Shown: piece by piece, positions 28,860 through 34,392 of the stretch | Layout of the letters: every line of letters begins with the position of its first letter | How positions within the stretch are numbered: the stretch's first letter is position 1 | Assembly (NCBI RefSeq): GCF_024505185.1 | Contig: NZ_JANIBJ010000010.1 | Span: forward strand, 1-64,000 | Direction of reading: 5' to 3' | Origin: Methylomonas subterranea | Lineage (GTDB): Bacteria > Pseudomonadota > Gammaproteobacteria > Methylococcales > Methylomonadaceae | DNA: 64,000 nucleotides | Position numbers and translations under genes: made by a program | Notes under the pieces: generated by a model | Databases searched by the model: none | Seen by the model: only the letters and a program-made list of their open reading frames with translations | Told to the model about the DNA's origin: nothing

Positions 28860-31457
28860 TTAGCGGTCAATCCAGGCGCATTGAAATTCATCGGCGCTCA
28901 GCGGCGGCGCCAGATAATAGCCCTGGTAGACATGGCAGCCGCATGACTGCAACAAGGCCAGCTGGAACTGGTTCTCAACGCCTTCCGCCACCACCGTTAT
29001 ACCCAAAATTTGTCCCAGCGACACAATGGTTTTGATGAAGGCCGCCTCGTTCGAAGCCGGATCGCCGGCATAGGCCTTGATAAAGGAACGGTCGATTTTC
29101 AAGGTCTGAATCGGCAATAGCTTTAAATACGACAACGACGAATAGCCGGTTCCGAAATCGTCCATGGCCACATGAATGCCGCGCCGGCGAATTTGCCTCA
29201 GCAAGTCGGTGGCTTTGTCGACATCATGCATCACCAAACTTTCGGTAATCTCCAACTCTATCCAGCCTGGCTCGACACCGGTGCGGGACAGAATATCATC
29301 CAGCACCGCAATGAAATCCTCGGCCAACAACTGCCTGGGGGACAGATTTATCGCCACGCGAAAACCCGCTCGGCCGCCGGCCCAGACCTTGGCTTGCAGA
29401 CAGGCCGTCTTCAAAATCCATTTGCCCAGCGGAACGATTAAGCCGGTTTCCTCGGCAATGCCGATAAAGGCGTCCGGCGGCATCATGCCGATACCGGGGC
29501 GCCGCCAGCGGATCAAGGCTTCCGCGCCGCATAACCCGCCATCGGCGCAAAAAGCCTTGGGTTGGTAATAAAGTTGAAATTCTTCCTGCTCAATCGCCAT
29601 CCGCAGGGCATTTTCCAGCAACAGCCGCTGCTGCGCGGCCGCATTCATACTGGCTTCAAAATAATGAAAAGTGCCTCGGCCCTTGGATTTAGACACATAC
29701 ATGGCGGTATCGGCGTGCTTGGTCAGGGTGTAAAAATCCTCGCCATCGTCCGGAAACACCGCGATGCCGATGCTGACGCCGATATAAACCTCGTGCTCGT
29801 TCAGTTGCACCGGCCCCTCCATCACCTCGATCAGTTGCTGAGCCAGTTCGGTGGCAACGGAAATACCCGTTAGACCGGGCAAAATGATGGTGAACTCGTC
29901 GCCGCTCAGGCGGGATACCGTATCCGATTTACGCAGACAGCTCTGAATCCGGCTGGCCACGATTTGCAACAGACAGTCGCCGGCCCAATGCCCCAATGTG
30001 TCGTTGATGACCTTGAAATGGTCCAGATCCAGAAAAAACAAGGCTATGCGGGATTGATTGCGCTCCGCCAACAGCATCTCCTGCTCCAGCCTGTCCTTGA
30101 ACAAGGCCCGATTGGGCAGCTTGGTCAGCATATCGTAATACGCCAACTGCTTGAGGTCCTGCTCGGTTTGTTTTTGGTAACTGATATCGGTGGCAATCGC
30201 CACATAATGCGTCAGCCTGCCCTGTTCGTCGGTCACCGCATTGATGCTGGTCAGCATGGGGCAAAATTCGCCGTTTTTGCGGCGATCCCAAACCTCGCCC
30301 TTCCAGTAACCCTGATTCAACAGAGATTGCCATAACTGGTCGTAAAAAGCCTGATCGTGAAGATGCGATTTCAACAGCCGGGTATTCTGACCCAACACTT
30401 CATGGCGTTGATAGCCGGTAATGGCGCAAAAGGCGGCGTTCACTTCCAGAATCGTCCCCCGCGGATCAGTGATAAAAATAGCTTCCCCGCTATTTTCGAA
30501 GACTTTGTCGCTCAAACGCAGTTGCGCTTTGCGATTTTTCAATTCGCTGATGTCCAGCGCGGTCAGCACCGCGCCTTCGAACTTGCCCTGCGCCGAGTGC
30601 AACAGGCTGCTGTTCAGCCAATACACGGGCTGTTGCGCCAACGGAACTTTACCGAGGAGATGATGTTCGCCGCTGTAGCGGCCATTCAGGCGGATGGTTT
30701 CCAGCAACACCGAATTTAACGGCCAGGGCAGACTGGGCAGTTGTTCGGCCAATTGCCGCAATTCCGCCGCCGGCAGCAAATCGTCGATCCGGACGCCCAA
30801 CAACTCCGCCTCGCCGTACCCCAATTCGCGGGTCACGGCCGCGTTCAGCCGGCGGATCTGGCCGCTTTGGTCTATCACCAACAGCAGATCGTCCATGGTA
30901 TCCATGACGCTCTCGACAAAACGGCTCAAGGCTTGCTGCTGTCCAACCCTCTTCTTCAGCGCGATTTTTTGCGCCTCGGTCTCGCTGAGCATGGCATCCA
31001 TGGTTTGGGTAATCACCAGGATTTGCCGCTCCTGCTTTAGATTGGCCAAGCGTAATTGCTCGACTTCCTCGCGCAGTTGTTGCACGGTACGCGAGCTTTC
31101 GTCGCCGGTCGGTGCAACGGCTTGCAGCCGCTCGACGTCATCAAGGGAGACAAAAAATTGCCCGTCGAGAGCCGTCACCGGATAACCGTCGGTTTTTAGC
31201 GACACCCTATGGCCGTGCGCGGGACAGTTCAGAGTATCGCCGTTGCGCAGCGGACAGGCAGACAGATCGTAGCCTTGATGAGGGCAGCGAGCCGGCACGG
31301 CACGATATTCGCCGTCGAGGTTAAACAGCAAAATATCCAGCGGACGTTGCCGACCCGGCAATTGCAATCTTCCAGCCCAGCGCGGCGGCCCGGCGGAATC
31401 GAGTATTTTCAAAGCTTCGATTACTGCCAACGCTGTATTGGCGATAGGCTGACTCAT
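28860..31457 (-). CDS. Rieske-PAS-PAS-GGDEF-EAL cyclic di-GMP signalling protein
   Basis: An 865-residue protein from the ATG at 31457. Residues 30-105 form a Rieske [2Fe-2S] domain with Cys58-x-His60 and Cys78-x2-His81. A coiled coil (about 120-170), two PAS domains ('VMDTMDDLLLVIDQSG' and 'ENSGEAIFITDPRG'), a GGDEF domain with intact 'RLSGDEF' and an EAL domain with 'AEALIRW', 'EITESLV' and 'DDFGTGYSSL' follow. Both catalytic sites look usable, so it can make or break c-di-GMP. It lacks a signal peptide and membrane helices. Its start overlaps the stop of the hydrogenase maturation protease gene (ATGA, 31454-31457), making it the fourth gene of the hydrogenase operon. The Rieske centre probably takes electrons from the hydrogenase small subunit. 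A longer frame upstream is Arg-rich out-of-frame read of the protease gene and is rejected. Confidence 0.88.
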   Translation of the reverse strand: MSQPIANTALAVIEALKILDSAGPPRWAGRLQLPGRQRPLDILLFNLDGEYRAVPARCPHQGYDLSACPLRNGDTLNCPAHGHRVSLKTDGYPVTALDGQFFVSLDDVERLQAVAPTGDESSRTVQQLREEVEQLRLANLKQERQILVITQTMDAMLSETEAQKIALKKRVGQQQALSRFVESVMDTMDDLLLVIDQSGQIRRLNAAVTRELGYGEAELLGVRIDDLLPAAELRQLAEQLPSLPWPLNSVLLETIRLNGRYSGEHHLLGKVPLAQQPVYWLNSSLLHSAQGKFEGAVLTALDISELKNRKAQLRLSDKVFENSGEAIFITDPRGTILEVNAAFCAITGYQRHEVLGQNTRLLKSHLHDQAFYDQLWQSLLNQGYWKGEVWDRRKNGEFCPMLTSINAVTDEQGRLTHYVAIATDISYQKQTEQDLKQLAYYDMLTKLPNRALFKDRLEQEMLLAERNQSRIALFFLDLDHFKVINDTLGHWAGDCLLQIVASRIQSCLRKSDTVSRLSGDEFTIILPGLTGISVATELAQQLIEVMEGPVQLNEHEVYIGVSIGIAVFPDDGEDFYTLTKHADTAMYVSKSKGRGTFHYFEASMNAAAQQRLLLENALRMAIEQEEFQLYYQPKAFCADGGLCGAEALIRWRRPGIGMMPPDAFIGIAEETGLIVPLGKWILKTACLQAKVWAGGRAGFRVAINLSPRQLLAEDFIAVLDDILSRTGVEPGWIELEITESLVMHDVDKATDLLRQIRRRGIHVAMDDFGTGYSSLSYLKLLPIQTLKIDRSFIKAYAGDPASNEAAFIKTIVSLGQILGITVVAEGVENQFQLALLQSCGCHVYQGYYLAPPLSADEFQCAWIDR

Positions 31458-31906
31458 ACCGACAACAACTCGCGTATCACGCGGACCGCCTCCGGTACCG
31501 CCCCTTCCGCCGCGGCGGACAGACCGAGGCAAAAAGCTTGTACCCCCTCGACCTCGACACCTACGATCAGAATCTCCGGCGGAGGGGCGCGGAAGATTTT
31601 CAGCGCTTCCAGCAGATACGCCAAGCCCAGCCCGTGACCGGTGGGGCTTTGTTGCCGGACGCTCAAATCTTCCGGCTTCAATATGCAAATTTGGCCGATA
31701 TTGCCGCGACCGGCCAAGGCATCGACCAGAATTGCCTGTCGGCAACCCCGCAGAAGCCCCAGCGCATCGAGCCCGGCGATGCCGGCGTTGCACAGCTCGA
31801 CATCGGCCGGCCAGGTCTGTAGCCGCAAGCTTTGGAACACTCGAATCCCAAAGCCGTCGTCGCCATGCAACTCGTTACCGAAACAAAGCACCCGCCGCTT
31901 AGGCAT
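31454..31906 (-). CDS. Hydrogenase maturation protease (HyaD/HupD type)
   Basis: A 150-residue endopeptidase that clips the C-terminal tail of a NiFe-hydrogenase large subunit once nickel is in place. The N-terminal motif 'GNELHGDDGFG' holds the nickel-sensing acids, and 'ILVDAL' the second one. It starts three bases after the large-subunit gene and overlaps the next gene by four. Classical H2-sensor hydrogenases have no cleavable tail and no such partner, so its presence here is informative. Confidence 0.9.
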   Translation of the reverse strand: MPKRRVLCFGNELHGDDGFGIRVFQSLRLQTWPADVELCNAGIAGLDALGLLRGCRQAILVDALAGRGNIGQICILKPEDLSVRQQSPTGHGLGLAYLLEALKIFRAPPPEILIVGVEVEGVQAFCLGLSAAAEGAVPEAVRVIRELLSV

Positions 31907-31909
31907 CGC

Positions 31910-33448
31910 TCAAGGCCATAACGTGACGCGTTTTCCCGTGTCCAGAATGTGTACGGTACAAACCAGACAGGGATCGTGGGAGCGAATGATGTGGCCGATT
32001 TCCAGCGGATCGTCCGGGTCGTCGACCCGCATGCCGATCAAACTGCTTTCCCAATGACCATGCCGGCCCGCGCTGTCCTTGGGCGAGGCGTTCCAGGCAG
32101 TCGGAGTGACGACTTGATAACGACTGATGGCGCCGTCGGAAATTTGCAGCCAATGGCCCAAGCCGCCGCGCGCGGCGGTGACCAGTCCAAATCCCTCGCC
32201 GTCGGGAATGTCCCCATCGGCGGGAGCCAGCATATGCGGCTCGTCCAGGTTAGCGGCCAACTCGAGCAGGGTTTCCCGCATGCCGCGCAGCAACTTGGCC
32301 GTGCGGCGCAAGCGGGCGAATTGACGCAACCAGGCGTTGCCGCCCTCGGCCCGGTATAGCGAGACTATCAGCGCATCGCCGTCTATCAACGCATCGGCCA
32401 GCGGCCCGGTTTGCACCACTTTATCCTGGTAACGCGGTGCTTTGCACCATGTGTAACGGTCGGAATGCGGCTGGTAATCCGGCACGGTTTCGCCCTGAAA
32501 CGGGTGCCGGCCGCCGGGGTATTGTTGAAACCAGGCATGACGCACATGCTCCGTGATTCCGGCTTGATCGAAAGGCTCGATATCGCCGGTTTCACCGTTC
32601 AAAAAACCGGCCTTGAACAAGCGCTTGTTGTGCGGCGGGAAGGTATCCGCATCTAGCGGATCGTCGTAAGCACCGTAACTAAGCATATGCGGCGTACCGA
32701 AACCCAGCCGATGCAGGCCGACTTCACGGCTGATCAGGGTAAACAGACCGATGGCGCTATCGGCGTGAGCGGCCTTCTCGCTCAACCAGGCAAAAAATTG
32801 TTCGGCGCTCTGTAAATCCAGCCAGGCATCCAGGTCGGCACCGGTGACGCTTTGTTCGAACCAGCGGGTCAGCCGGTTGAGGATGGACAGGCTGTCGAGG
32901 ATATGGCGGCTGTTGGCCGAAGTGGTAACACCGCCCGGCAGCATATAAGACGAATGCGGCCATTGGCCGCCGAACAGCGCGACGATCTCGACGATATGCC
33001 GGGAGTTTTCCAATGCTCCCCTATGCACCGAGCCCTTAAACGGCTGAAACGCGGCCAGGGCTTTTGGGTAAAACGACCGATTTTGGTACTTTGGGTGACA
33101 AAAGTCGGCGGTGAAAAACAGGAACGACTGGCGCAAATCGCTCTGCACCGTTTCGGCCATCAGGCACAGGTTACGGATGCGCACGGCATTGGGCGGCACC
33201 GGAATGCGGCCGACCTGTTCCAAGGCCAGCACGGCGGCATTTAACTGCGCGGTACCGCAAATCCCGCAAATCCGTGGTGTAATCACCAGCGAATCGGTAG
33301 GCTTGCGGCCCAGCATGATTTGTTCGAAACCGCGATACAGCGTGCCTATGCAGCGGGCGTCGACCACCACGTTGTCTTCCAGGTCAAGCTGGAAATCCAG
33401 ATCGCCCTCTACCCGGTTCATTTCAATTTGGATGGTTCTGCGGCTCAT
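31910..33448 (-). CDS. NiFe-hydrogenase large subunit, H2-sensor type
   Basis: A 512-residue catalytic subunit from the ATG at 33448 (the longer frame is an out-of-frame read). The nickel ligands lie in 'RICGICGTAQ' (Cys61, Cys64) and 'DPCLVCTVH' near the C-terminus. Four positions match Ralstonia HoxC, the regulatory hydrogenase, with a shift of one: Asp16 ('RVEGDL', normally His), Ile63, Gln68 (normally His) and Phe111 ('FLFF'). In HoxC these mark an oxygen-tolerant, slow enzyme used for sensing. Unlike HoxC, twelve residues follow the last His, a likely cleavable tail. It has no export signal. The chain is otherwise complete. Confidence 0.9.
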   Translation of the reverse strand: MSRRTIQIEMNRVEGDLDFQLDLEDNVVVDARCIGTLYRGFEQIMLGRKPTDSLVITPRICGICGTAQLNAAVLALEQVGRIPVPPNAVRIRNLCLMAETVQSDLRQSFLFFTADFCHPKYQNRSFYPKALAAFQPFKGSVHRGALENSRHIVEIVALFGGQWPHSSYMLPGGVTTSANSRHILDSLSILNRLTRWFEQSVTGADLDAWLDLQSAEQFFAWLSEKAAHADSAIGLFTLISREVGLHRLGFGTPHMLSYGAYDDPLDADTFPPHNKRLFKAGFLNGETGDIEPFDQAGITEHVRHAWFQQYPGGRHPFQGETVPDYQPHSDRYTWCKAPRYQDKVVQTGPLADALIDGDALIVSLYRAEGGNAWLRQFARLRRTAKLLRGMRETLLELAANLDEPHMLAPADGDIPDGEGFGLVTAARGGLGHWLQISDGAISRYQVVTPTAWNASPKDSAGRHGHWESSLIGMRVDDPDDPLEIGHIIRSHDPCLVCTVHILDTGKRVTLWP

Positions 33449-33450
33449 GC

Positions 33451-34392
33451 TCAGGGATCCATGGTCTTGTTCAACACCCGCTCCGGCGCGGCTTCGTGCG
33501 CCAGACTTTTGTAAGCCATATAATTGGCGCGCTCCACTCCCAAGGGCAGGCTGACCGGAATGGGACCAATTTTTTCGGTGCGGAACAAATCCTGATCGGA
33601 CGGAAAATCCGCCGAGGTACAGCCGAAGCAAGGCACTCCGGCGCGGGTTTTACTGCCGCGACCGTTCCACAGCTCGGTATTGCAAATCGCCATGGTTACC
33701 GGCCCCTTGCAACCCAGATTGAAGAACATGCAGCCCTTGCCGCCGAATTCGCTGTCTTCCACATCGTATTCATGATACTCGTTGCGGGTACAGCCCTGGT
33801 GCACCATGGTATTGAAAAAAGCCCTGGGCCGGTTGAGATGATCCAGTTCCAACGGCAAGCCGGAAGCCAGCATGGCCAGGGTTTTGCTCATTGCATTCGG
33901 ATGAGCCGGGCAACCCGAAACATTGACCACCGGCCGGCCGGCGCGGGAACGCCAGTCGATTGACAACAAACCGCCGGGATTCTGCTTATCGAACTGCAAG
34001 CCGAGACAATCGGTGGGATTGGGCGGGGCCGCGTGCACGCCGCCGTATGCGGCGCAGGTACCCATCGCCACCAGATAAGCGGCTTTGTCCGCCAGTTGCA
34101 GGATCAGACTCATTTTGGAGCGCCCGCGGTACGGATCGTACATGCCGGAGCCATTGGGCCCGGTCATGATGCTACCTTCCACGCACAAAATATCCAGGAC
34201 CAGCCTGTCCTCGAGAATCGCATCCAGCACGGCGTCCAGATGCTTTTTAGGTTCGGCGGACAGCGAGGGCTGCCACAGAAATTCAATCCCGTAACTATCC
34301 ACCAACTCTTCCACGGAAGGACTGTCCGCGCACAAAATCGACATGGTGTCGCCGCCGCAAGAACCGGTTTGTAGCCAAAGTAACGTAGTCAT
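33451..34392 (-). CDS. NiFe-hydrogenase small subunit, cytosolic sensor type
   Basis: A 313-residue electron-transfer subunit that starts without a Tat signal, as in group 2 (cytosolic) hydrogenases; 'LLWLQTGSCGGDTMSILCAD' resembles HoxB/HupU. Ligands for three iron-sulfur clusters are seen: 'GTCAAYGG' and 'GCPAHP' (proximal), 'VHQGC', 'GKGC', 'LGCKGP' (distal), and 'ICN', 'PCFGC' (medial). The first proximal motif reads C-G-G-D, so an Asp takes the place of the second Cys of C-x2-C. It is the first gene of a four-gene operon; no sigma-54 promoter could be recognised in the 240 bases upstream. Confidence 0.9.
   Translation of the reverse strand: MTTLLWLQTGSCGGDTMSILCADSPSVEELVDSYGIEFLWQPSLSAEPKKHLDAVLDAILEDRLVLDILCVEGSIMTGPNGSGMYDPYRGRSKMSLILQLADKAAYLVAMGTCAAYGGVHAAPPNPTDCLGLQFDKQNPGGLLSIDWRSRAGRPVVNVSGCPAHPNAMSKTLAMLASGLPLELDHLNRPRAFFNTMVHQGCTRNEYHEYDVEDSEFGGKGCMFFNLGCKGPVTMAICNTELWNGRGSKTRAGVPCFGCTSADFPSDQDLFRTEKIGPIPVSLPLGVERANYMAYKSLAHEAAPERVLNKTMDP

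Follow-up and report, generated by a model that had tools for sequence, protein, structure and literature searches.

A predicted H2-sensing group-2c hydrogenase operon of Methylomonas subterranea with a Rieske-PAS-GGDEF-EAL receiver, and the exchangeable outputs of its relatives

The class of [NiFe]-hydrogenase considered here, group 2c, was reportedly defined by Greening et al. in the ISME Journal. The HydDB table lists group 2c as 'Diguanylate cyclase-linked (putative)', enzymes that may sense H2 and regulate via cyclic di-GMP (c-di-GMP) (PMC5037454), and a Thiomargarita paper repeats this proposal from Greening et al. (PMC4853749). For the H2 sensor HoxBC, signalling is stated to need continuous H2 activation, electron transfer and complex formation (PMC10073562), and the exact mechanism of H2-sensing hydrogenases is described as still being investigated (PMC6978683); whether such a hydrogenase informs its partner by electrons or by shape is unsettled. 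Here we analyse a four-gene operon on the minus strand of a 64,000-nucleotide (nt) stretch of Methylomonas subterranea (contig NZ_JANIBJ010000010.1, positions 1 to 64,000; hereafter the window). The operon lies at 28860-34392 and encodes a hydrogenase small subunit, a large subunit, a maturation protease and a Rieske-PAS-PAS-GGDEF-EAL protein, hereafter the receiver. An earlier inspection of the letters alone (the sequence-only reading) had proposed a sensor-type hydrogenase coupled to a c-di-GMP enzyme, noting that group 2c had been proposed to act near cyclase genes. The HydDB table agrees with this and, since it already holds the core H2-to-c-di-GMP idea for group 2c, this idea is not new, being some ten years old.

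Our analysis points to a cytosolic group-2c hydrogenase that serves as H2 sensor and communicates its state to the downstream receiver, changing c-di-GMP, with the Rieske domain as an added redox element; we give this reading a probability of roughly 0.72. What is new here is the swapping of outputs between relatives, a constant coiled coil-PAS module shared with the HupT/HoxJ kinases, the distribution of the Rieske domain, and an Asp/Glu position at the proximal cluster. A full-text literature search, which covered few subscription papers and leaves priority uncertain, turned up no earlier description of the Rieske-bearing receiver, of the kinase outputs or of the PAS domain common to both groups; one paper records EAL/GGDEF/PAS and NifU-Rieske, each as a gene cluster of its own in the vicinity of hydrogenases (PMC12727194). 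As had been claimed, the four genes overlap or nearly touch, with gaps of 2 nt between the small and large subunit genes and 3 nt between the large subunit and protease genes, and an overlap of 4 nt between the protease stop and the receiver start.

Related loci (L numbers; G numbers denote genomes) were collected by a contig scan with a query of mostly methanotroph sequences. Since only the best 80 of 541 related stretches were kept, the loci discussed below are no census. From these 80 loci, the window and an Ideonella plasmid, 71 loci (the window, L037 and L039-L107) were taken as group 2c or its nearest kin. The window's large subunit (512 amino acids (aa), 31910..33448, Pfam NiFeSe_Hases) falls in a clade of 75 rows in a 91-row tree obtained by a quick search (Shimodaira-Hasegawa-like approximate likelihood ratio test (SH-aLRT) 100), apart from three group-2a and eleven group-2b large subunits, and within an 18-row methanotroph clade (support 100). 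This tree includes eight loci from G genomes, omits L096, L107 and L110, has SH-aLRT values as its only support and carries a long-branch warning. Methylobacter large subunits are 79-83% identical to that of the window, and a 2025 study that ran HydDB reports group 2c enzymes in Methylobacter (PMC12810054). By sequence the window's large subunit is a group 2c enzyme, the name of the clade resting on published reports rather than on a HydDB run. The clade and HydDB's own table support the claim of a sensor-type hydrogenase coupled to a c-di-GMP enzyme. The L2 metal-binding motif of the window (SHDPCLVCTVH, 31949..31981) has His for Phe at one position of the group-2c motif, quoted as SFDxCLVCTVH in the passage that also gives SHDaCLVCTVH for the Thiomargarita enzyme, which shares this His (PMC4853749). 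After ...CTVH the protein continues with a C-terminal extension, ILDTGKRVTLWP (31913..31948), which the operon's protease (150 aa, 31454..31906; Pfam HycI, TIGR00072) presumably cuts off.

The small subunit (313 aa, 33451..34392; Pfam Oxidored_q6 and NiFe_hyd_SSU_C) begins with MTTLLWLQTGSCGGD, in which no Tat-like leader was seen by eye. Its alignment places Asp15 (34348..34350) where the second proximal-cluster Cys would stand. This position is Asp in 59 and Glu in 11 of the 70 group-2c small subunits (70 of the 71 loci, the contig of L066 carrying no small subunit), Cys in 11/11 group 2b and Asn in 3/3 group 2a. The sequence-only reading had argued for sensing from four large-subunit residues, D16, I63, Q68 and F111. 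Their correspondence to D15, I62, Q67 and F110 of Cupriavidus HoxC is confirmed; it is their diagnostic value that did not hold. D16 and I63 also occur in all three group-2a large subunits examined, and of 70 group-2c enzymes only 18 have Gln at position 68, the other 52 having His, so the four residues were rejected as proof of sensing. Gln68 is almost limited to the methanotroph Rieske clade (L045 inside it has His; L070, L090 and L092 have Gln outside it), and at position 111 most of the 70 carry Phe (54), the others Met (14) or Tyr (2). In these alignments Q68 and F111 separate the window from group 2a, Q68 is no mark of group 2c, and Asp/Glu at the second proximal-cluster position appears to be a stronger class mark of group 2c than the four residues.

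The constant part of the receiver is a coiled coil followed by the first PAS domain (PAS1), ending in GKxEGA-like motifs. In the window (receiver of 865 aa, 28860..31457) the coil is modelled as one long helix and interpreted as a coiled coil (residues 120-187, 30897..31100; block predicted local distance difference test (pLDDT) 78-98 in AlphaFold2), and PAS1, delimited by the AlphaFold2 model and the profile described next (residues 188-303, 30549..30896), resembles the PAS domains of DosP, FixL, NifL and MmoS. A coil-PAS1 profile from an alignment of 26 receivers was searched against a family sample of 201 genomes, drawn from a larger group, with at most 16 candidates scored per genome. The module lay directly beside the hydrogenase in all 31 family genomes with a group-2c enzyme (at least 62% identity), with E 2e-63 or better, and the other 170 family genomes held no match at that level (best 64 bits). 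A genome survey of this kind had been named as a check on the proposal, and the co-occurrence passed it.

The next-best matches in the family sample, in G145 (64 bits) and G002 (56 bits), were HupT-like open reading frames (ORFs) beside group-2b-like small subunits. At all 12 group-2b hydrogenases the same profile matched the adjacent ORF (38.8-67 bits), including that of Cupriavidus, annotated 'ATP-binding protein', which we take to be HoxJ; these loci are the 11 of the tree and L137 (by similarity), the ORF of L117 is cut by the contig end, and kinase identity was not confirmed ORF by ORF. Other PAS ORFs in the fetched loci reached at most 37 bits, and the best PDB chain 32.8 bits. Conversely, a profile of 10 of the 12 group-2b ORFs scored 36.8 bits on the coil and PAS1 of the window's receiver and 10.9 bits on its second PAS domain (PAS2). 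As a control, 64 of 65 PAS2 domains scored at most 22.9 bits with this reverse profile, the remaining one being a HupT-like ORF; only the reverse control was used, PAS2 cut-outs with a PAS1 tail having scored up to 99.6 on the coil-PAS1 profile. Aligning the two profiles with hhalign gave 99.5% (E 6e-23). At the level of sequence profiles this establishes that the receiver's coil-PAS1 is homologous to the coil-PAS of HupT/HoxJ kinases and, as the match runs both ways, group-2b and group-2c sensors appear to address the same kind of coil-PAS. The window carries such a HupT/HoxJ-type receiver, its hydrogenase lying outside group 2b.

Two genomes of the window's genus, G079 and G011, each have, besides a group-2c operon, a second, unlinked coil-PAS1 protein with a kinase-receiver-Hpt output, found with the coil-PAS1 profile (L184:6734-9868 and L185:6417-9551, minus strand). 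Since such a copy is present in 2 of the 31 genomes, one sensor may serve two receivers.

The hydrogenase-protease block is a constant of the 71 group-2c loci; the receiver output varies. Seven loci (L060, L066, L081, L094, L095, L096 and L100) end at a contig edge before the output; at the 64 readable ones it is GGDEF-EAL in 40, a histidine kinase in 23 (usually hybrid, and placed after the protease) and neither in one, and the output type changes at least three times on the large-subunit tree. Coil-PAS1 is detectable at all kinase-output loci except L104. The sequence-only reading had contrasted known sensors, which signal to a kinase, with a c-di-GMP output here; because a kinase is encoded in 23 of the 64 readable operons, in 22 cases behind the same coil-PAS, that contrast does not stand in this form. 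The relatives thus show sensor block and output to be modular, in that they retain the sensor and coil-PAS1 and use a kinase or have no Rieske domain.

Other arrangements were seen in the same survey. Protease and coil-PAS1 share one open frame in 11 readable loci (L065, L067-L070, L073, L075, L089, L103, L105 and L106) and in the cut L100, confirmed by Pfam in L065 and L073; these are apparent protease-receiver fusion proteins, followed by a histidine kinase wherever the contig reaches. The receiver of L041 is a split ORF. Two Sulfuricella loci (L054:4090-6798 and L082:4473-6917) have an additional PAS-GGDEF-EAL gene immediately upstream of the small subunit, and in Ideonella dechloratans a c-type cytochrome gene (L037:16869-18884) follows the GGDEF-EAL receiver.

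The Rieske domain of the window (residues 10-104, 31146..31430) had been described as intact, with C58-x-H60 and C78-x2-H81. This is exact, and the four ligands are invariant in 22 of 22 aligned group-2c Rieske domains (window included), whose mean column identity is only 46%. The domain scores above the Pfam cut-off (E 2.1e-7), has the CxH...CxxH ligands of a [2Fe-2S] Rieske domain and shows the fold in models, AlphaFold2 predicting a Rieske sandwich followed by a 68-residue helix and a PAS domain (mean pLDDT 88, predicted template modelling score 0.55). The nearest solved Rieske domains are oxygenase ferredoxins (profile E 8e-6; the best Foldseek E is only 2.6e-3, the top matches being Rieske proteins). 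An intact Rieske domain occurs in 23 of the 71 loci, comprising 21 GGDEF-EAL receivers, the kinase of L097 and a separate 112-aa ORF ahead of the kinase receiver in the same operon of L055 (SAR324). A single stop codon separates this last ORF from the receiver, with which it shares its reading frame; the gene may therefore be split or the sequence in error. Two further Rieske domains look degenerate, in L060 (below the Pfam cut-off) and L088 (by eye). Among the matches listed for a joint Rieske-coil profile in a 369-genome class sample, the window alone had a full-length match, the other genomes (136 with a match) showing the Rieske part alone or, at the group-2c operon of G010, the coil alone.

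In a Rieske tree of 59 rows and 107 columns all 23 domains linked to group 2c formed one clade (100/98), apart from 31 generic and five HucE domains. The Rieske-bearing loci are scattered over the hydrogenase tree, from basal to derived branches, implying at least four changes, and because of this spread one gain with several losses is the simplest reading. On these trees the group-2c Rieske domain is of single origin, and was probably ancestral and repeatedly lost, the change counts themselves not distinguishing gain from loss. A derivation from HucE was considered and rejected: with the group-2c Rieske profile a generic Rieske domain of the same genome scored 40.5 bits vs 14.6-28 bits for HucE, and HucE is not the sister group in the tree (three of the four other Rieske domains of the window's genome were compared; L149 was without the search pattern). 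No small-subunit column, as a docking signature that would track the Rieske domain, separated the five lineages with it from the seven without, the best columns being noisy. The sequence-only reading had taken the Rieske centre for an obvious electron relay; the domain is, to us, best explained as an extra electron acceptor or a second redox input carried by part of the family, rather than a relay that all members need.

The remainder of the receiver comprises PAS2 (residues 318-425, 30183..30506), a GGDEF domain (residues 439-595, 29673..30143) with an I-site-like RKSD five residues before its SGDEF motif, and an EAL domain (residues 616-852, 28902..29612) in which EAL, DDFGTG, KIDRSF and EGVE, and with them the catalytic residues, are kept in the alignment. 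Pfam and the alignment agree with the two PAS domains, SGDEF and EAL announced beforehand. Several receivers have an upstream GDEL motif besides GGDEF. The receiver gene adjoins and overlaps the protease gene on the same strand, which fits the co-transcription predicted for group 2c. Elsewhere, the receiver of Sedimenticola hydrogenitrophicus (L056) has altered EAL motifs (DGFGAG, AAGVE) and an intact GGDEF, so it is perhaps a cyclase only. A promoter scan gave 4 sites vs 3.4 in shuffled sequence, no excess, and terminator-like sites showed a modest one (14 vs 8.9); neither result was used.

In the mechanism that we favour, in which the hydrogenase senses H2 and the receiver responds through c-di-GMP, H2 would be split at the NiFe site and its electrons would move along the small-subunit clusters, as the fold and the kept ligands suggest. 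The maturation gene hypD is present in the window's genome. The hydrogenase would dock on the receiver's coil-PAS1 portion, which is homologous to that of HupT/HoxJ, and electron transfer, a change in docking, or both might alter the coiled-coil dimer. Such a change could shift the GGDEF/EAL balance, and in this way H2 would alter c-di-GMP, while the Rieske domain, N-terminal to the coil, would be a probable electron acceptor, discharge point or second redox input. Several observations weigh against this scheme. Our full-text literature search found no experiment on any group-2c system. Most family members are without a Rieske domain, which therefore cannot be the family's general signalling route. 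Locus L092 (Pyrinomonadaceae) has hydrogenase and protease with no signalling gene within 2.9 kb downstream, and two basal relatives, L104 and L134, have a kinase without detectable coil-PAS1 (no PAS by Pfam in L104; a PAS domain that the profile missed in L134). With 52 bits on the coil-PAS1 profile, a generic multi-PAS kinase of G186 falls within the HupT/HoxJ range, which makes the HupT/HoxJ link good but not exclusive. Finally the window's SGDEF is the sole such change among 40 aligned receivers, which leaves cyclase activity more doubtful than phosphodiesterase activity; active cyclases with SGDEF do occur, and a phosphodiesterase-leaning output is possible from the motifs.

How the signal might travel, and whether there is one, can be read in several ways. 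The electrons themselves could be the signal, running from an Asp/Glu-ligated proximal cluster to the fused Rieske domain, whose redox state would set c-di-GMP through the coil, the domain would then be ancestral and would have become superfluous where a lineage signals directly to the coil-PAS shared with group-2b kinases; we hold this tentatively and would not bet on it. Slightly better placed, if still doubtful on balance, is a conformational sensor in which docking to coil-PAS1 carries the signal, the Rieske domain lying outside the signal path as a leftover or as a second input for O2, redox poise or nitric oxide. Signalling by docking is what is assumed for HoxBC-HoxJ, and among receivers with the same coil-PAS1 19 of the 40 GGDEF-EAL loci have no Rieske domain, while 21 of the 23 kinase loci have none that is intact; the two degenerate-looking domains and the lack of a small-subunit column that clearly tracks Rieske presence agree with this. 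Yet where the domain is present its ligands have stayed invariant amid far more variable surroundings, the 23 domains form a single clade, and the separate ORF of L055 would suit a soluble electron carrier, subject to the split gene or sequence error mentioned above.

That the enzyme instead feeds metabolism, with the Rieske domain as an electron exit and the c-di-GMP enzyme merely reporting flux, seems very improbable to us. Huc, an uptake enzyme of group 2a, is the closest solved relative, being the top PDB match of both the large subunit (7uus/7utd) and the small subunit (7uur/7utd); a NifU-Rieske protein is moreover encoded in five of six group-2a-like clusters fetched (not seen in the Runella stretch). 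The window's Rieske domain is however fused to a signalling protein, HucE is not its nearest relative, and the kinase-output loci have a kinase in the receiver's place after the hydrogenase. We also regard it as unlikely that H2 is sensed chiefly for control of the cell's other hydrogenases through c-di-GMP. The window's genome (4.4 Mb, 104 contigs) does have one full-length group-1-type hydrogenase, and among the matches listed such an enzyme, assigned from a full-length PF00374 match above 580 bits, occurs in 15 of 31 group-2c genomes vs 29 of 170 others (31 with two partial matches; Fisher p 0.0005, no kinship correction). The other 16 group-2c genomes are without one among those matches, so this control cannot be the whole role, and the operon holds no other hydrogenase gene. 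If H2 sensing through the receiver is the correct reading, H2 would be linked to c-di-GMP-controlled behaviour (biofilm, motility) in methane-oxidising bacteria. Because the family offers natural versions with and without the Rieske domain and with c-di-GMP or kinase outputs, the question of electrons or shape becomes directly testable.

Among known systems, HydDB group 2c shares with the window the hydrogenase class, a GGDEF/EAL gene downstream, methylotroph hosts and the proposed H2-to-c-di-GMP role, whereas nothing in the published passages refers to a Rieske domain, to kinase outputs or protease-kinase fusions, to a shared receiver PAS or to an Asp/Glu ligand. The group-2b systems HoxBC-HoxJ and HupUV-HupT likewise pair a heterodimer with a homologous coil-PAS receiver and have D16, I63, Q68 and F111 in common with the window. 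They differ in showing 35-40% identity, in large subunits that end at ...CTVH without an extension (11/11), in Cys at the proximal ligand and in that no GGDEF-EAL receiver was seen beside them in the fetched loci; the window's hydrogenase, with its C-terminal extension, Asp15 and place outside the 2b clade, is not a member of that group. Nor does it belong with group 2a, lying outside that clade with Asp15 rather than Asn and beside a Rieske domain that is not of the HucE type (comparison with three group-2a large and small subunits and five HucE). Huc has in common with it the large-subunit fold, D16, I63 and a Rieske protein in the gene cluster, and the three group-2a enzymes examined differ by Asn15, Gln at the distal-His place, His at position 68 and Leu at the place of F111. 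Their NifU-Rieske protein, called HucE where group-2a-like clusters are discussed in PMC12319191, does not group with the group-2c Rieske domains. The oxygen-sensing PAS-PAS-GGDEF-EAL protein DosP resembles the receiver in its GGDEF-EAL layout and PAS fold. DosP is not known to have a hydrogenase or Rieske partner. The oxygenase-type Rieske ferredoxins BphA3, CarAc and T4moC, the nearest solved relatives, share fold and motif with the window's Rieske domain at about 20% identity, and that domain differs from them in being fused to a signalling protein.

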